A DNA stretch of 64,000 nt, from NCBI GenBank assembly GCA_030950365.1, contig JAUZRQ010000009.1, positions 1 to 64,000 of the forward strand, given 5' to 3'. Positions 29,022-41,576 of this stretch are shown one piece after another (positions within the stretch are counted from its first letter, which is position 1; the number at the start of each line of letters is the position of its first letter). The position numbers and the translations under genes were made by a program. This DNA comes from Candidatus Zhuqueibacterota bacterium. Its GTDB lineage: Bacteria > Zhuqueibacterota > Zhuqueibacteria > Zhuqueibacterales > Geothermadaptataceae. The notes under the pieces were generated by a model. The model did not search any database, was not told the DNA's origin, and saw nothing but the letters and a program-made list of their open reading frames with translations.

Positions 29022-29441
29022 TCAACTTTCCCGGTTTTCGGTGGTGTAATACCGCTTCAAATGCTCAATAAAATATTTTGGTGGCCGGGCTACCTGGCCT
29101 TTGTTGTTGGTGAAAATATGCAGCGTGTATCCTTCGGCCAGCATTTGATTTTCATGCAGAATTTGGTAATCGATCCGAATTTTCAATCGCGGTAGCTCGG
29201 CCAGCCTGGAAACGATGGTGACCTCGTCGTCGTAGCGCGCTGGCTTCTTATACTCGCAATGCGCTTCTATGACCGGCAGCCAGTAGCCATCCTGCTCCAG
29301 CCGCCTGTATGGCATGTCGATAGAGCGCAGCAGTTCGTTCCGGCCGACTTCGAACCATTCCAGATAGCGGCCATAATATACAAACCCCATCTGATCAGTC
29401 TCGGCGTAGCGCACCCGAACCCGAGTTGCATATTCGATCAT
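29022..29441 (-). CDS. ybgC: YbgC-like acyl-CoA thioesterase (4HBT hotdog family)
   Basis: A 139-residue hotdog-fold thioesterase that hydrolyses acyl-CoA esters. The catalytic Asp is in [23 protein letters not shown] (Asp16), the hallmark of the 4-hydroxybenzoyl-CoA thioesterase/YbgC family. The remaining strands ([36 protein letters not shown]) also fit. The start overlaps the accA stop by 4 bases (ATGA), so the two are translationally coupled. In proteobacteria YbgC sits with tol-pal; here it accompanies fatty-acid synthesis. Confidence 0.9.
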
Positions 29442-30427
29442 ACCGTGCGTTTCTCCTTGCCATAGACGGGATGGTTCTCGTAAAATCCCATTTTTTCGTA
29501 TTTCTTGATGCGCTCCTGAACCAGCACGTCCGGATGGATTTTCTTCAATTCCGACAAATTGCGCAGAATGGCCTTTTTTAGCAGCGATGCGGCCTGATCA
29601 TAATCCCGGTGCGCGCCGCCGACCGGCTCCTGGATGACCTCATCCACCACGCCCTGTTCTACCAGGTCGTTGGCGGTCAGCTTCAACGCCTCGGCGGCAA
29701 TGGATGATTTCGAGGCATCTTTATAAAGAATGGCCGCACAACCTTCGGGCGAAATCACCGAATACCAGGTGTTCTCCATCATCAGCACGCGGTCGCCCAC
29801 GCCGATGCCCAGTGCTCCGCCGGAGGCGCCCTCACCGATAATGACGATCAGAATCGGCACCGGCAGCCGCGCCATTTCATACAGATTGCGCGCAATGGCC
29901 TCGGCCTGCCCGCGTTCTTCCGCGCCGATGCCCGGATACGCACCGGGGGTATCGACCAGCGAGATGATGGGCCGTTTGAATTTGGCCGCCAATTTCATCA
30001 CCCGCAGCGCTTTGCGGTAGCCTTCCGGATGGGCCATCCCAAAGTTGCGATACAATTTCTGTTTGGTATCGCGGCCTTTCTGATGGCCGACCAGCACAAT
30101 TTTCTCGTTATCGATTTTTCCCAACCCCGCCACGATGGCCGGATCATCACCGAAGGCGCGATCACCGTGCAGCTCCACCCAGTCTGTGACAATGCGTTCC
30201 ACGTAATCCAGAGTATATGGCCGCTGCGGATGCCGGGCCAGTTGCACCCGCTGCCACCGTGTGAGCTTGGAATAGATCTCCTGCTGCAGCTTCTGTGCTT
30301 TTTCCTGCAGCCTGGCGATCTCCTCGTCCAATCCGATGCCTTCGGTGGCGGCATAGTCCTGCATTTCTTTAATTTTCTTTTCCAGCTCGATGATCGGTTT
30401 CTCAAAATCCAGCACAAATCCTTCCAT
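29438..30427 (-). CDS. accA: Acetyl-CoA carboxylase carboxyltransferase subunit alpha
   Basis: AccA with AccD transfers the carboxyl group from biotin to acetyl-CoA, making malonyl-CoA for fatty-acid synthesis. The 329-residue protein has the coiled-coil N-terminus ([16 protein letters not shown]), [40 protein letters not shown], the oxyanion-hole motif [13 protein letters not shown] and [13 protein letters not shown]. It is 12 bases after the GT2-fusion gene. AccD is not in the window. Confidence 0.96.
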
Positions 30428-30439
30428 TGTCCTCCGCCT

Positions 30440-32608
30440 CTATGTTTCTTTCGAACCGCGTAATATCGCTTTGATCAGAATTTCCAGGTCCAATAATGGC
30501 GAATAATGTGTTAAATAAAATAGCTGGAATTTTTCTTTTTCCCTGGCCGTCAGACCTTTATCTCGGTTGACCTGAACCAGGCCAGTGAGCCCTGGTTTTA
30601 AAAACTGCTCGGCTGCAGGCATTTTTTCGCTCGAGTGCATTTCGCGGCCCACGAGCGCCAGTCGGCCTCTGAGCACCAGCCAGAGATACGGCACCAGATT
30701 CAGGATGCGATGGCCAGGAAGCCGAACAATCTCGACTGGATCCGCATCCGAGCCGAGTTTCAGCGTTGAGCGTTCCACCTGCTGGCGATGCCGCAGACGC
30801 TGCAGCAGGTACGGCAACGATATCCATAAAAGTACGAAACTTGATATCACAAAATCAAACATTCTTTTCATCATTCGATGTCCCGCATGCGAAAGCCGGT
30901 AATCCACATCCAGCAGCGGCACATCGCTGAGCTGATCAATGCTGGCCTTACCAATGATCACTTCAAGATTGCTGGGAATCAGCTTGAAATTGACCTTGCT
31001 GGAACGACATTCGGAAATCATTTTCAGAATCTTGTCATATGGAATGCGGTGGGTGCTAAAAATGACTTCCTGAATATGGCGCCGCTGAACAATATCCCGA
31101 AGATTGTCCGCACTGGTCAGCACCTTCAATCCGTTATAGCTGCGTCCCACATCATCCGGATTCAGGCTCACCAGGCCGACGATTTCATATCCTTTGCCGA
31201 TGCGCGTTTTGAGTTTGCTCAGGATCTTTTCGCCGCGGGAGAAATTGCCCACCACCAGGGTTTTGCGCTCCAATAGCGTGCGGCCGAGGGTGCCTTTGAA
31301 GGGCACCAACCGCAGCAAATGCAGCAATTTGTATGTCAATCGCCAGCCGCCGAGGAACAGCAGGTTGAAGCTTCCGGCCAGCAGCACCACCGCGCGCGAA
31401 TAGGCGAACTGCTTGAAAAAGTAGGTAAACGCGCTGTTGATCATGAAGCCGGTCAAGGCCGCCGCCGAGGCGCGGAAAAAGGAAAATTTCCAGCGCGAAT
31501 ACGAGCCCCATGCGGCCAGAGAAATCAGCCACACGCTGCTGTAAATGGCGTTCACCGGCAAATAATCCTGCCAGAAGCGCAAATGGCCAAACTTGATGAA
31601 AATCGCCGCCGCCAGAGAGGCCTGCATAAACAGCAGGTCCAGCAGCGGGATGGCAATGCTCCGGAACGAATTCTGGAAAAAGCTGAACGCCGCCCGCAAC
31701 CAGATGGCAATAATCAGCAGGTAATAGGTAACAAAAAAATACCGATGCCGGAAATGCTTTTTGACGAATCGCGCCATGGATTGATAGAATATGAGCAAAC
31801 TATCGAGGCGGCTGCGCTTGCTGCTTTCGCCTTTGAAATGAATGATCTGCGTGTCGGGAACATAGTAGATCTTCCAGCCGGCCTGGATGGTACGGTAGCA
31901 CCAGTCCAGGTCCTCGCCATACAGAAAGAACGACTCGTCTAGCAACCCCACCTGTTCGAACGCCTCACGCCGGATCATCATGAAGGAGCCGGAAATGGCA
32001 TCCACCTCGGCGATTTGATCTTCCGGAAGGTAGGTCAAATTATAGCGGCCGAACAGGCGCGATTTCGGAAACAGGAAGCTCAGGCCGGTTAAGCGGGTAA
32101 AGGCCACCCAGGGCGATGGAAAACTGCGGCGACAGGCAAGCTGTAAACTGCCATCGGGATTGAGAATTTTGCAACCGACCATGCCGGCATCGGGATGGGC
32201 CTTCATGAAAGCAATTAGCCGCTCGAAGGTGTCTTCCTGGGCGATGGTGTCGGGATTGATCAGCACGAGGTACTGCCCTCTCGCCTGCCGCAGCGCGCGG
32301 TTATTGGCCCGGGCAAAGCCTTCGTTGCGGGTGTTCTGAATCAGAGTGATGTCGGGGAACTGCTCGCAGACCAGCTTCGTGCTGTCATCGTCCGAGGCGT
32401 TGTCAACCACAAAGATTTCCGACGGTATATGCTGCAGGGCGGATTGAATCGAAATCAGGCATTGTTGCAGGAATTCTTTGACGTTGTAACTGACAATGAT
32501 CACCGAAACAACAGGCTGACGGACGGGCCGCGCCTCGGTGGCCGGTTCACTTTGCCTGGCAGGGACATCCAGAGTTTGCGATGCAGTTGTATTAATCGAT
32601 TCCGGCAT
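30440..32608 (-). CDS. Fusion of GT2 glycosyltransferase and degenerate polyprenyl-phosphate sugar-1-phosphate transferase
   Basis: A 722-residue membrane protein. Residues ~33-260 are a GT-A glycosyltransferase (SVIIVSYNVKEFLQQCL; VVDNASDDDS; LVLINPDT; GEDLDWCYR). Residues ~290-435 carry about five transmembrane helices. A Rossmann-like domain (~448-560; TLVVGNFSRGEKIL) follows, as in WbaP/WcaJ-type enzymes. Residues ~578-722 match the bacterial sugar-transferase domain (KRMFDFVISSFVLLW; KPGLTGLVQVN). The catalytic LDELPQ block reads LNLVPY (636-641) and the GPRP motif reads GREM. The phosphoglycosyltransferase part is therefore probably inactive while the GT2 part looks intact. It sits in a glycan gene set with rfbD and dpm-like genes. 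Confidence 0.85.
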   Translation of the reverse strand: MPESINTTASQTLDVPARQSEPATEARPVRQPVVSVIIVSYNVKEFLQQCLISIQSALQHIPSEIFVVDNASDDDSTKLVCEQFPDITLIQNTRNEGFARANNRALRQARGQYLVLINPDTIAQEDTFERLIAFMKAHPDAGMVGCKILNPDGSLQLACRRSFPSPWVAFTRLTGLSFLFPKSRLFGRYNLTYLPEDQIAEVDAISGSFMMIRREAFEQVGLLDESFFLYGEDLDWCYRTIQAGWKIYYVPDTQIIHFKGESSKRSRLDSLLIFYQSMARFVKKHFRHRYFFVTYYLLIIAIWLRAAFSFFQNSFRSIAIPLLDLLFMQASLAAAIFIKFGHLRFWQDYLPVNAIYSSVWLISLAAWGSYSRWKFSFFRASAAALTGFMINSAFTYFFKQFAYSRAVVLLAGSFNLLFLGGWRLTYKLLHLLRLVPFKGTLGRTLLERKTLVVGNFSRGEKILSKLKTRIGKGYEIVGLVSLNPDDVGRSYNGLKVLTSADNLRDIVQRRHIQEVIFSTHRIPYDKILKMISECRSSKVNFKLIPSNLEVIIGKASIDQLSDVPLLDVDYRLSHAGHRMMKRMFDFVISSFVLLWISLPYLLQRLRHRQQVERSTLKLGSDADPVEIVRLPGHRILNLVPYLWLVLRGRLALVGREMHSSEKMPAAEQFLKPGLTGLVQVNRDKGLTAREKEKFQLFYLTHYSPLLDLEILIKAILRGSKET

Positions 32609-32653: not shown

Positions 32654-33373
32654 TTATATTTTGCCCACCAAATCCCAAAACTTCAGGCGCCACACCATCA
32701 GCGCGGCTTCGATCATGACTTTGCGGGACATTTTGCTGCTGCCGCGGTCGCGGTCGGTGAAAATGATCGGAATTTCGCAGAAACGAAAGCCCTTTTTCCA
32801 GACGATAAAATGGAGTTCAATTTGGAACGAATAGCCATCACTCTGGATTTTGTCCAGGTCGATACTTTCCAGCACCGTGCGGCGAAAGCACTTGAAACCA
32901 CTGGTACAGTCTTTCAGTGGCAGCCCGGTAATGGTACGCGTGTACCAGTTGGCGAACAAACTGAGCAGCAGCCGTGACAGCGGCCAGTTGATGACGTTGA
33001 CCCCGGTCAAATAGCGGGAACCAATCACCAGATCATAGCCTTCCTGGATGGTATCCAGAAAGCGCGGAATGTCATCCGGATTGTGCGAGAGATCTGCATC
33101 CATTTCAAAAATAAGATCAAATTTATGCTCGATGGCGTATTTGAATCCGGCGACGTAAGCCGTTCCGAGGCCCATTTTGGCCGGCCGCCGAATGAGATGA
33201 ATCGCCGGATTTTGCTGCTGCAGCTCTTCGACCACCACGGCGGTGCCATCGGGCGAATTGTCGTCCACCACCAGCACTTCCAGATCGGCAATTCCGAGCG
33301 CGAAAACCCGTTCGAGCAGGCGTTTGACGTTACCGGCTTCGTTATAGGTTGGTATGACAATCAGAGTCCGCAT
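32654..33373 (-). CDS. Polyprenol-phosphate mannose (dolichol-phosphate mannosyl) synthase-like GT2
   Basis: A 239-residue soluble GT2 enzyme of the DPM1 type. It shows LIVIPTYNEAGNVKRLLER, VVDDNSPDGTAVVVEEL, the metal-binding DADLSHNPDDIP, DLVIGSRYLTG and LKDCTSGFKCFRR. Enzymes of this family transfer mannose or another sugar from a nucleotide sugar to polyprenyl phosphate for use by membrane transferases such as DUF2723 or PMT proteins. A DUF2723 protein is encoded upstream in the same strand block, which fits. The sugar is not known. The gap to the fusion gene is 45 bases. Confidence 0.9.
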   Translation of the reverse strand: MRTLIVIPTYNEAGNVKRLLERVFALGIADLEVLVVDDNSPDGTAVVVEELQQQNPAIHLIRRPAKMGLGTAYVAGFKYAIEHKFDLIFEMDADLSHNPDDIPRFLDTIQEGYDLVIGSRYLTGVNVINWPLSRLLLSLFANWYTRTITGLPLKDCTSGFKCFRRTVLESIDLDKIQSDGYSFQIELHFIVWKKGFRFCEIPIIFTDRDRGSSKMSRKVMIEAALMVWRLKFWDLVGKI

Positions 33374-33420: not shown

Positions 33421-34353
33421 TCAGGCCTGCGCCTGTTTTGCCTGCAAAACGCTGGCGTATTGTTGTTTGAATTTCCGCAATCCCATACGCACATTCGACA
33501 TGCGGATGCCCAATGCCTTTTCCGCTTTTTCGATAATAAATCCCGAGTTGAGCGGCCGCGGTGCGGCCTGATTCAATTCAGCGGTCTTAATGCGTTCAAT
33601 CAGCCCGCCGTCCAGATCGAACTCTTCGGCAATCGCCAGGGCGAAATGATAGCGGTCGATCATTTCGCTGCCGCTGATGTGAAAGACATCCTGAATATTC
33701 GAATCGGCCAGCACGATCAACGCTTCGGCCAGCTCATCGGCCAGGGTGGGATTGCCAAGCTGATCATCGACCACCCGGATGGATTTGCCCTGCATGAGCT
33801 GATCGATCACCCAGGTGACGAAATTCGGCCGAACGCCCGGCGCGTAGCCGTAAACCACCATGGTGCGCGCAATGGCATAATTGGCGCCCGAAGCCATCAG
33901 CACGTTTTCGCCCGCCAGCTTGGATTTGGCATAGTACCCCAGTGGATTCGGCCGGTCCTCTTCGCGGTACGGACCGTTCTGACCATCGAAAACATAATCC
34001 GTGGACACATGAATTACCCGCGCATCCACCAAACGCGCTGCCCGGGCCAGATATTCCACCGCTTCCACATTGGTGCGCCAGCACGCTTCTTTTTCGGTTT
34101 CGCTGCGATCGACATTGGTGTAGGCCGCGGCATTAAAAATGAACTTCGGATGCAATTGCCTGGCCAGCTTCGAAAGCAATTTGTACTTGCTGATATCGCC
34201 TTCGATGTATTCGATTCCATCCACGGCATACGGCTCGCGGAATTCGCGCACGATGCCGTACACATCGTATTTTTCCCGCAATTGCCGAACCAGCTTCGAC
34301 CCCAACAGCCCGTGCGCGCCGGTGACGATCACTTTAGGCTTCAAGATGTGCAT
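33421..34353 (-). CDS. rfbD: dTDP-4-dehydrorhamnose reductase-like protein (RmlD family)
   Basis: RmlD/RfbD reduces dTDP-6-deoxy-L-lyxo-4-hexulose to dTDP-L-rhamnose with NAD(P)H. The 310-residue protein has the Rossmann motif VTGAHGLLGSKLV, NAAAYTNVDRSETEKEAC, STDYVFDGQNGPYREEDRPN and the YYAKSKLAGE catalytic Tyr/Lys pair. The extended SDR family also includes other sugar reductases, so the exact product is not certain. Its start overlaps the PfkB-kinase gene by 20 bases. rfbA, B and C are absent from the window. Confidence 0.85.
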   Translation of the reverse strand: MHILKPKVIVTGAHGLLGSKLVRQLREKYDVYGIVREFREPYAVDGIEYIEGDISKYKLLSKLARQLHPKFIFNAAAYTNVDRSETEKEACWRTNVEAVEYLARAARLVDARVIHVSTDYVFDGQNGPYREEDRPNPLGYYAKSKLAGENVLMASGANYAIARTMVVYGYAPGVRPNFVTWVIDQLMQGKSIRVVDDQLGNPTLADELAEALIVLADSNIQDVFHISGSEMIDRYHFALAIAEEFDLDGGLIERIKTAELNQAAPRPLNSGFIIEKAEKALGIRMSNVRMGLRKFKQQYASVLQAKQAQA

Positions 34354-37791: not shown

Positions 37792-38832
37792 TCAGGCACC
37801 TGCAAGGCTCCCATACGTTTTCCTGCCGAACACGAAGTATTGCAAAACCGCGCTGCCCCGGTACATTTTCTGGGCAACACTGCGATCATCGACCCGCCGC
37901 AACCGCCGCACCTGCCGGCGGGCACGCAGAATATGCGCGGTGAACAGCGGCACCGCAGCCAGCGCCCGGAGAATGGCCAGGGCATGCGAAATTCGGCCAC
38001 GCGCCAATGCATACAGCAAAGCACCCAAATCCAGCAGCAGCCGCGCTGGCAAAATCCACAACAATCGCGCCAGTGACAGGTTTTTCAGTAGCATCAGCAG
38101 GTTGTTGCGGTGGTTCAAATACAATTTGTGCGGCGAATCGCTGGCCAGGGTGGAACCGGCCTCGTGAAAGACCACGGCTCCGGGCTCAAATACCACCCGG
38201 TAACTGGCCAAATGCATGCGCCAGTTCAGGTCAATTTCTTCCATGTGGGCGAAAAACACTTCATCAAACCCGCCCAGATTCTCCCACACATCCCGCCGTA
38301 TCAGGCAGCAGGCCCCACTGGCCCAGAAAATATCACAAGCCTGATCATACTGACCGGTGTCAGTTTCCAGCGTATCGAACAGGCGGCCGCGCGCAAACGG
38401 AAAACCGAAGACGTCGATCATACCGCCGGCCGCGCCCGCATAATCGAACCGCTGCGGTTCGGACAGCGACAGAATTTTCGGTTGCACCGCCGCAATGTCC
38501 GGTTTGCGCTGAATGGCCTCGACCAGGCGCTGCAGCGCCTGCGCGGCCAGTACGGCATCGTTGTTGAAAAAAAGCAAAAAATCGCCGCGCGCGAACAGGC
38601 TGCCATAATTACAGCCACCGGCATAACCGCGATTCCACCCGGCGCGCACCACCCGCAACCCGGAAAATGCCTCAACCGCGGCCTCGACACTACCATCAGT
38701 TGAGGCATTGTCCACCAGAATGATCTCGAATGGCGAATATCCATTTTCGAAAATCGACGTCAAACAGCGAAACAGAATCTCCCTGCCGTAGCGGTGCGGA
38801 ATAATGATGGAAATTAGCGGCTGCTCGCTCAT
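37792..38832 (-). CDS. Family 2 glycosyltransferase
   Basis: A 346-residue GT-A fold enzyme. It shows SIIIPHRYGREILFRCLTS, ILVDNASTDGSVEAAV, the DxD-like FLLFFNNDAVL, SGACCLIRRDVW and the acidic catalytic MEEIDLNWRMH. Two or more hydrophobic helices near residues 270-310 (LLWILPARLLLDLGALLYAL) suggest membrane association, as in rhamnosyl- or mannosyltransferases of O-antigen systems. The start overlaps the DUF2723 gene by 4 bases (ATGA). The sugar is unknown. Confidence 0.9.
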   Translation of the reverse strand: MSEQPLISIIIPHRYGREILFRCLTSIFENGYSPFEIILVDNASTDGSVEAAVEAFSGLRVVRAGWNRGYAGGCNYGSLFARGDFLLFFNNDAVLAAQALQRLVEAIQRKPDIAAVQPKILSLSEPQRFDYAGAAGGMIDVFGFPFARGRLFDTLETDTGQYDQACDIFWASGACCLIRRDVWENLGGFDEVFFAHMEEIDLNWRMHLASYRVVFEPGAVVFHEAGSTLASDSPHKLYLNHRNNLLMLLKNLSLARLLWILPARLLLDLGALLYALARGRISHALAILRALAAVPLFTAHILRARRQVRRLRRVDDRSVAQKMYRGSAVLQYFVFGRKTYGSLAGA

Positions 38833-41492
38833 TGCTGTTTGACGCTATCCGCGTTGCTGGCCTTCTGTTGCAGTGATTCGAATTGTTGCAGCAGGCTGCG
38901 GGCCATGCTGTTGTTTGGGTCCACCGCGATCCAGCGTTGCAGGACCTCGACGCCTTTGTCGTACTGGCCGCGCCGCCGATACTGGCTGACCAGAAATCCG
39001 TACGCCTGGGCCAGATCGGGCTTTTCTTTGAGAATTTCATTGGCCAGGGATTCCGCCGCCATCAGGTCGCCGGCCACGTCTGCGTACCATGGCAGGAATT
39101 GCACTTTCTGCTCCGGCTGCAAATCGCTCCGATGGATAACAAAATCCAGCCGCTTTTTCAACTCGCCGGGGCGCCCTGCCGAGCGGTACAACTGCCCGAT
39201 GAGAATGGCCAGATTCGGATCCGTCGGCGGAATGACCTCTTCCGGGATGATTTCGGTCATCTGATCCAGCACGCGCAGCGCATCTTCGTTTTTGTTTTTG
39301 GTGATATAATACTGCGCCAGGGTCAGAAACGCCGAGCGGTAGTTGCCGAGCAGCGCCTTGATGTTCTCGTTGTAATACACATCCGGGTTGTTCAGATTGC
39401 GGAACTGGTATTTTTCGAACAGGTTGGTTTCAAGAACCTCAGGATCGATCATCCGCCGGTCGATTTTCACCGGCAGCACCCGGAAAGCCAGTCCGTCCAT
39501 GCGCAGGTAATCGTGCAGGCCAATTTTATTGGCGTCGGCCACGGTGACCGCAAAGTACACCGGCCGCCGGAACTTGTTTTCGGACAGGATGTGGATGATC
39601 ATGATGTCTTGCACGCGAATGCCCTGGCCATACAGCGTGGGCGCCAGCTCGAATGAGACGCCGCGGTTCTCCGGTGGTTTATAATTGGGATCCAGTTCCT
39701 TCAGTTTGGCCACCCATTCGTTGTGGACGTCCTCCGGCACGTCGATATTGATACGCTGTTTTTGCCACGGCATGGCCCCGAGCCGGTCGATCTCACGGTC
39801 GGACAGTTTGATGGGCACCTTTGGCTCAAAGTCGCGCAGTTGCTTGATGTACCAGGGCGTGTTTAGCAGACTCAAATTCACCACCCGTACATCCGGCCGA
39901 ATGCCTTCCACGGTTTGCAAATACCACAGCGGAAAGGTGTCGTTATCGCCGTTGGTGAAAATGATGGCGTTGGGCTCACAGGTTTGCAGAATGTTGTAAG
40001 AATAGTCCCAGGCCACATAATTACCTGTGCGATCATGGTTATCGTAGTTAAAAGCAAACATCAAGCCGGGCACCAGCACCAACACCAGCAGTGTGGACAG
40101 CGCCATGATGGGCAGGCGATATTTTTGCGCCTTCTTCAACACTTCCTGCAAATATTCCAGAATGGCGCTCATGCCGATACCGATCCACAGCGCAAAAGCG
40201 AAGAACGAACCGGTGTAAGCATAATCGCGCTCGCGCGGCTGCGGATCTTCCTGATTGAGATAAATCACGATCGCGATGCCGGTCATGATAAACAGCACCA
40301 GAATGCTGAAGGAGCGGCGCCAGTCCCGGAAAAAGTGGTGTATCATACCAATCAAGCCCAGCAAAAACGGCAGCCCCAGCAGCCCCCGGAAGGCGATCGT
40401 TTCGAGGATGAGGCCGTCCGGCCCGAGGGTATCGCCCTTGCCAATGAACTGCCACCCGAAGTAACGGATGTACATTTTTTTGATCTGATATTCCCACAGT
40501 GGCGCGCGACGCTCCACAATGGACCAGTCACCATATTGTTCCCGGTTCAAGTAACTCACGAATTTGGCCGGCGTGTCTGGATCATTTTCATCGATGGCCG
40601 GGTTCAGGGAAGAACGCACAAAAATAATTCCGTATGTACTGTAGCCTATCAAAATCAGAAACAGCGACATGAATCCAAGCGCAAGTTCGCGTTTACGATT
40701 GACGATGGCATTGCGGGCCAGCCAGGCCACGGCAACAAACAGGATGCCCACGGCAATGAATGAGAATTTGTTGAGCAATTGCGGGATGCCTTTGACCACG
40801 CCAGGATAGATGGCCAGAAAGGCCAGCGTGGCCCCGAAAGCAAACACCGCAAACGATTCTAACGTGATTTCCCTGCGCTTCTGGAAGTACATGATCAGGA
40901 AGACCGTGGGCAGCGCCAGCAGATTGAGCAAATGCACGCCAAGAGCCAGACCCACGAGATAGAAAATCAGCACCAGCCATCGGTCCGATGCGGGATCTTC
41001 GTGTTGATCGGCCCAGCGTAGAATCAGCCACACCACAATGGCAGTAAAGAAAACCGAAGCCGCGTACACCTCGGCTTCCACGGAATTGAACCACTGGCTA
41101 TCAGAAAATGCAAAAGCCAGAGCGCCGATGACGCCGCTGCCGTACTGAATCAGTTTCTGTTCGACGGTCTTCGCTTTGCCCTGCCACATTTCCAGCAGCC
41201 GCACGATAATGAGGAATGCAAACATGGCTGAGAAAGCACTCAGAAGAGCCGAAATTATATTCACCCGCAAACCGATATCACTGGCGATCGGCAGCACGGA
41301 GAATATGCGACCAATCAGAATATACAAGGGCGCCCCTGGAGGATGGGGAATGCCCAGTATGTATGAACAGGCGATAAATTCGCCGCAGTCCCAGAATGAG
41401 GTCGTAGGCGCTATCGTGGACAGGTACGTGAGAAACGACACCAGAAAGACAACGGCCGCGGTGATGACTTTGGGATGTTTCCAATTCTTCAA
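38829..41492 (-). CDS. DUF2723 multi-pass membrane protein with C-terminal TPR region
   Basis: An 887-residue protein similar to the DUF2723/TMEM260-type membrane glycosyltransferases. The first ~480 residues hold about 12 transmembrane helices; the first periplasmic loop has the family motif TTSFWDCGEFIACSYILGIP HPPGAPLY (split here by a space), which carries the conserved acidic pair in DCGEF. A soluble region (~490-720) and TPR-like repeats (~720-880) follow. The start TTG 41492 is chosen because GGGAGG lies 6 bases upstream; TTG 41525 has its purine run directly abutting the codon. It probably transfers a polyprenyl-linked sugar to envelope proteins; this is inferred from family and context. 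Confidence 0.85.
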   Translation of the reverse strand: MKNWKHPKVITAAVVFLVSFLTYLSTIAPTTSFWDCGEFIACSYILGIPHPPGAPLYILIGRIFSVLPIASDIGLRVNIISALLSAFSAMFAFLIIVRLLEMWQGKAKTVEQKLIQYGSGVIGALAFAFSDSQWFNSVEAEVYAASVFFTAIVVWLILRWADQHEDPASDRWLVLIFYLVGLALGVHLLNLLALPTVFLIMYFQKRREITLESFAVFAFGATLAFLAIYPGVVKGIPQLLNKFSFIAVGILFVAVAWLARNAIVNRKRELALGFMSLFLILIGYSTYGIIFVRSSLNPAIDENDPDTPAKFVSYLNREQYGDWSIVERRAPLWEYQIKKMYIRYFGWQFIGKGDTLGPDGLILETIAFRGLLGLPFLLGLIGMIHHFFRDWRRSFSILVLFIMTGIAIVIYLNQEDPQPRERDYAYTGSFFAFALWIGIGMSAILEYLQEVLKKAQKYRLPIMALSTLLVLVLVPGLMFAFNYDNHDRTGNYVAWDYSYNILQTCEPNAIIFTNGDNDTFPLWYLQTVEGIRPDVRVVNLSLLNTPWYIKQLRDFEPKVPIKLSDREIDRLGAMPWQKQRINIDVPEDVHNEWVAKLKELDPNYKPPENRGVSFELAPTLYGQGIRVQDIMIIHILSENKFRRPVYFAVTVADANKIGLHDYLRMDGLAFRVLPVKIDRRMIDPEVLETNLFEKYQFRNLNNPDVYYNENIKALLGNYRSAFLTLAQYYITKNKNEDALRVLDQMTEIIPEEVIPPTDPNLAILIGQLYRSAGRPGELKKRLDFVIHRSDLQPEQKVQFLPWYADVAGDLMAAESLANEILKEKPDLAQAYGFLVSQYRRRGQYDKGVEVLQRWIAVDPNNSMARSLLQQFESLQQKASNADSVKQQ

Positions 41493-41576
41493 GGTCTGCC
41501 TCCCGTTTGTAAGCCTTTTAAACAACTCCTTCCGCTCTTATCGAATCGAATTCCCCTCTACCACTCAAATATATAA

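Follow-up and report, generated by a model that had tools for sequence, protein, structure and literature searches.

An apparently ancient and conserved pseudoenzyme module of the large phosphoglycosyltransferase type, fused to a GT2 glycosyltransferase

The gene at 30440..32608 (minus strand) of the window, that is, the whole stretch of 64,000 nucleotides analysed, belongs to an uncultured KSB1-group bacterium and raises the question of what a phosphoglycosyltransferase scaffold may be doing once its catalytic residues have gone, and how it serves the glycosyltransferase to which it is joined. PF02397 is the family of the monotopic phosphoglycosyltransferases (PGTs), and the encoded protein (722 aa, ATG start, orthologues known) combines a C-terminal module of this type with an N-terminal GT2 domain. 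The reading preferred here, with a probability of about 0.65, is a joint one: the large-PGT module would be a conserved pseudoenzyme acting as a membrane platform or partner, while an active membrane GT2 would extend a polyprenyl-linked sugar made elsewhere.

Domain architecture and the former active site

All parts of the gene are encoded on the minus strand. The GT2 domain, residues 33-264 (31817..32512), combines the GT2 fold with a conserved D, an N-P-D and an E-D motif, and its signature residues D69, N118-P-D120 and E232-D233 are invariant across orthologues; as the original prediction had held, this domain is most likely active. Structure comparison showed that it resembles many GT2 enzymes, WrtF among them. 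The TIGR01556 rhamnosyltransferase model was among the best GT2 models but scored 67 bits, far under its curated cut-off of 200.55, and the donor and acceptor sugars cannot be read off the sequence.

The GT2 domain is followed by a four-helix membrane bundle at residues 290-431 (31316..31741), assigned from hydropathy and from the AlphaFold helices at residues 291-340, 344-366, 377-397 and 405-431, and by the PF13727 (CoA_binding_3) Rossmann-like module of large PGTs at residues 447-560 (30929..31270), so that the order typical of a large PGT, with bundle and PF13727 module ahead of the PGT core, is found here. The core itself begins with a reentrant-helix segment (residues 575-607, 30788..30886) carrying the invariant K581-R582-D585 and a nearly invariant Pro599, continues with a degenerate linker (residues 608-635, 30704..30787) in place of the GPVFFxQxRxG and YKFRTM loops, and ends in a retained scaffold (residues 636-717, 30458..30703) with the invariant residues G648, G654, G673, Y698 and D707. 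The PGT fold can be recognized by the K-R-x-x-D and proline kink of the reentrant helix, by G-x-x-S-x-V-G and P-G-[IL]-T-G, and by the C-terminal Y...D. Pfam matches cover residues 35-220 (GT2), 376-545 (PF13727) and 639-716 (PF02397), the last corresponding only to profile positions 91-175 of 179.

An AlphaFold model built from 51 sequences reached a pLDDT of 80 overall and of 87 over residues 285-722, with the GT2 domain mostly above 85 except for residues 150-200. The top Foldseek match of the module in the PDB was WbaP, followed by PglC; with superpositions this modest (TM 0.31 when normalised to WbaP and 0.58 when normalised to PglC), it is mainly the profiles that carry the claim of homology. 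A profile search with the module retrieved WbaP at 1e-30 and PglC at 2e-23, and profile-profile comparison with the active PGTs of operons gave a match over the whole length (probability 100, E 2e-51).

The original prediction had pointed to LNLVPY in place of LDELPQ and to GREM in place of GPRP, on a scaffold that keeps KRMFDF... and KPGLTGLVQVN. These features were confirmed, with LNLVPY at residues 636-641 and GREM at residues 654-657 (30638..30649), and the sequence matches to PglC and WbaP in the PDB place N637-L638 (30695..30700) where the active enzymes have their catalytic Asp-Glu. The extent of the loss had been understated, for profile coverage and alignment reveal that the first half of the PGT domain is gone as well, including the SPGPVFFxQxRxG and YKFRTM loops, such that the fusion protein possesses neither the dyad nor these two loops. 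Asp-Glu is absent from the dyad columns in all 93 aligned homologues, and these columns vary freely. A dyad relocated within the C-terminal domain, which would have overturned the prediction, was sought in the family alignment and the profile-profile alignment, and both argue against it; no Asp-Glu was found elsewhere in that domain. Some orthologues contain an 'LDEIP'-like string, which precedes the reentrant helix and falls in the PF13727/linker region, where active PGTs read 'NQIYGFPL'.

It is very improbable that the PGT domain still catalyses through other residues. Catalytic residues have migrated in some pseudoenzymes, as stated in general terms in PMC10211241, but here the dyad, the Q/R/G loop, the KFRTM loop and GPRP are all missing, and the dyad columns are free to vary. 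An assembly or frameshift artefact, for which one could invoke the 136 contigs of the source assembly, has a negligible probability and is refuted by the same losses in full-length orthologues from dozens of independent assemblies. In PglC, Arg88 and Arg145 are basic residues that bind undecaprenyl phosphate (PMC10519829). Their equivalents are not conserved in the alignment of the fusion family, the second column having been placed by eye, and docking of a lipid at the old site is thus unproven.

Distribution, selection and erosion of the family

Full-length homologues occur in assemblies of KSB1/Calditrichota, Ignavibacteria, Chlorobi and Bacteroidota; the fusion that the original prediction proposed to look for in related genomes is accordingly present in dozens of assemblies. 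With E below 1e-90 as threshold, the gene turned up in roughly 76 of the 82 genomes sampled from the source phylum. In the phylum of G099, the genome that carries the Chlorobi-labelled locus L060, long forms were counted in about 129 of the 296 genomes sampled. At E 1e-90, no fusion match was obtained for almost half of the Bacteroidota sampled. Orthologues are also seen in longer frames (1492 aa in L173 from 3456, 1035 aa in L174 from 5212), and the protein encoded by L046 (from 3636), 828 aa long, ends in an intact large PGT preceded by a further N-terminal part. The source genome contains five other PGT genes, all intact according to genome search and motifs, which answers the earlier question of whether a functional PGT gene exists elsewhere.

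The dead PGT domain is under purifying selection. In 14 close pairs, dN/dS by the Nei-Gojobori method was about 0.09-0.27 for the PGT part and, in most pairs, about 0.04-0.09 for the GT2, dS being near saturation in several; the PGT part evolves faster. Among proteins about 45% identical, K581, R582, D585, G648, G654, G673, Y698 and D707 are invariant in the PGT part, and each of these residues is present in at least four of five compared active PGTs of the source genome.

In the tree of large-PGT modules the dead modules form one clade (support 100/100, stem length 1.51) apart from the active PGTs. Intact GT2-PGT fusions of 750-824 aa, one of them in the source genome (L118 from 1285 on contig C11, 824 aa, with IDEIPQ), fall among stand-alone active PGTs, and the GT2 tree, which has several long branches, likewise keeps them apart, among other GT2s. 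These intact fusions were considered as ancestors of the dead one and rejected because of their grouping in both trees. It follows from the two trees that the GT2-PGT fusion looks to have arisen twice independently, and the dyad loss in the dead clade looks single and old. Taken as a whole, the family looks like an old and conserved pseudoenzyme branch within the PGT superfamily, and the papers searched contained no description of such a branch. A second fused paralogue of 759 aa (L122 from 6093), in which the dyad has changed from DE to EK and KFRTM to RFRVK, forms a tandem pair with an intact fusion (L122 from 3692) and represents an independent dyad loss.

In Bacteroidota a size series extends from about 665-720 aa through 611-660 aa, in which the PGT core has shrunk, to 390-430 aa, where the GT2 is accompanied only by the end of the PF13727 module; the short forms nest inside the fusion family in the GT2 tree, and two of them (L158, L159) still adjoin accA and the thioesterase gene. 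In G088, from another phylum, a 546-aa protein stops before the PGT core and has remained in the gene cluster. Since the core is reduced or absent in these lineages while the GT2 persists, it is not universally needed. Living intermediates from the full module to its complete loss are thereby known. One may ask whether the module is a mere relic, an inherited membrane anchor without any specific function and on its way to being lost, as the stepwise shortening seen in Bacteroidota, from about 700 to 390-430 aa, beside a persisting accA and the faster evolution of the PGT part would suggest; the dN/dS values well below 1 and the eight invariant residues at about 45% identity speak against this, and it is considered unlikely. 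For annotation pipelines, naming by PF02397 would miscount priming enzymes.

Gene neighbourhood and possible function

In the window the fusion gene is part of a co-directional run in which no gap exceeds 47 bases, comprising genes for a TMEM260-like protein (PF11028) with TPR (38829..41525), a GT2, a methyltransferase, DUF4837, purE, PfkB, an RmlD-like dTDP-4-dehydrorhamnose reductase (33421..34353), a DPM1-like polyprenyl-phosphate sugar synthase (32654..33373, named from sequence), the fusion protein, the accA homologue (acetyl-CoA carboxylase alpha subunit, 29438..30427, named from sequence) and a YbgC/FadM-type acyl-CoA thioesterase (29022..29441); those with coordinates are all on the minus strand. 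Between 36816 and 38832, the frame of the GT2 and that of the methyltransferase share 233 bases, and the methyltransferase start probably lies further in than the listed GTG. The TMEM260-like protein is the only PF11028 protein of the source genome, which also has RmlC.

The neighbourhood is widely retained, with counts that come from related and hence not independent loci: accA adjoins the fusion gene in all 102 loci with enough sequence, and DPM1 stands beside it in 83 of 98 (KSB1-type 20/33, Ignavibacteria/Bacteroidota 33/35, further loci 30/30). G082 and G088, from other phyla, keep the order TMEM260-like, RmlD, DPM1, fusion gene, accA, thioesterase. In one subgroup of the source phylum the fusion gene stays with accA and DPM1 is found near TMEM260, and a tight coupling of the fusion gene to DPM1 everywhere was rejected on this account. 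Of 15 genomes of the same class, chosen mainly from this subgroup, 14 have DPM1, and in 11 of these it shares a contig with TMEM260 at a distance of no more than about 10 kb, so that DPM1 and TMEM260 form the firmer pair and the tie of the fusion gene is looser. The DPM1-like synthase and the TMEM260-like protein, whose genes keep together over the phylum also where the fusion gene has moved away, are a candidate bacterial O-mannosylation module.

With a GT2 of this class, it is likelier that the lipid-linked sugar serves as acceptor than that it serves as donor. Of the original prediction, the GT2 fused to a catalytically dead membrane module can be retained, given a module that has lost its dyad and is under selection; the proposed coupling to a lipid-linked donor fares less well, as the arginines for undecaprenyl phosphate are not conserved and an acceptor is likelier. 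In the preferred scheme the fusion protein could not itself make a polyprenyl-PP-sugar. A neighbouring enzyme would supply the acceptor, either polyprenyl-P-mannose from DPM1 or, in Ignavibacteria/Bacteroidota, a polyprenyl-PP-sugar from an intact large PGT encoded upstream; the GT2 would add one sugar to it, and the dead module would keep the GT2 anchored to the inner leaflet, with docking of the lipid or association with an active PGT as further possible roles.

In a stricter version of such pairing the dead module would heterodimerise with an active large PGT, from which the GT2 would receive the polyprenyl-PP-sugar directly, the active enzyme being regulated or positioned in turn. All 28 Ignavibacteria/Bacteroidota loci have a large PGT that keeps the Asp-Glu and GPRP motifs within 4.5 kb upstream of the fusion gene, and WbaP is a homodimer (PMC10942596), which makes pairing plausible where such a neighbour exists. 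None of the 29 KSB1-type loci has one, however, and no PGT lies next to the fusion gene in the window either, so that heterodimerisation is viewed as rather doubtful.

With regard to the product, a 2025 review described the machinery of the shared Bacteroidota O-glycan core as unidentified and as resembling O-mannosylation (PMC12871550). The linkage of DPM1, RmlD and a TMEM260-like protein fits, by way of hypothesis, the Man-Rha core of these O-glycans and would narrow the search for its machinery to a small set of genes. It can be speculated, though at low probability, that the TMEM260-like, GT2, RmlD, DPM1, fusion and accA genes together constitute the Man-Rha core machinery of Bacteroidota-type protein O-glycans: DPM1 would produce polyprenyl-P-Man, the fusion GT2 would add a deoxyhexose on the lipid, and the TMEM260-like enzyme would transfer the product to protein, the dead PGT module being a repurposed lipid-carrier platform, dispensable once DPM1 had provided the primer. 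Sampled Bacteroidota without the fusion gene also have PF11028.

Comparison with known systems

GT2 glycosyltransferases of the WbbL/GlfT1 type extend polyprenyl-PP-sugars. They have the GT2 fold and the N-P-D, G-E-D-x-D and H-x-K-G motifs in common with the GT2 of the fusion protein, which differs from them in carrying a dead PGT module. With the large monotopic PGTs WbaP and WcaJ, the fusion protein shares the four-helix bundle, the PF13727 module, the reentrant helix and the PF02397 scaffold; unlike them, it has no Asp-Glu dyad, GPVFFxQxRxG or YKFRTM, its GPRP is replaced, and a GT2 has been added at the N-terminus. Bifunctional PGTs (Bi-PGTs), in which the PGT core is joined to functional domains (PMC10942596), and the intact fusions of loci L118-L123 display the same order of domains as the dead fusion, GT2 first and large PGT second. 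The intact L118-L123 fusions, on the other hand, have retained Asp-Glu and cluster with stand-alone active PGTs, whereas the dead fusion does neither.
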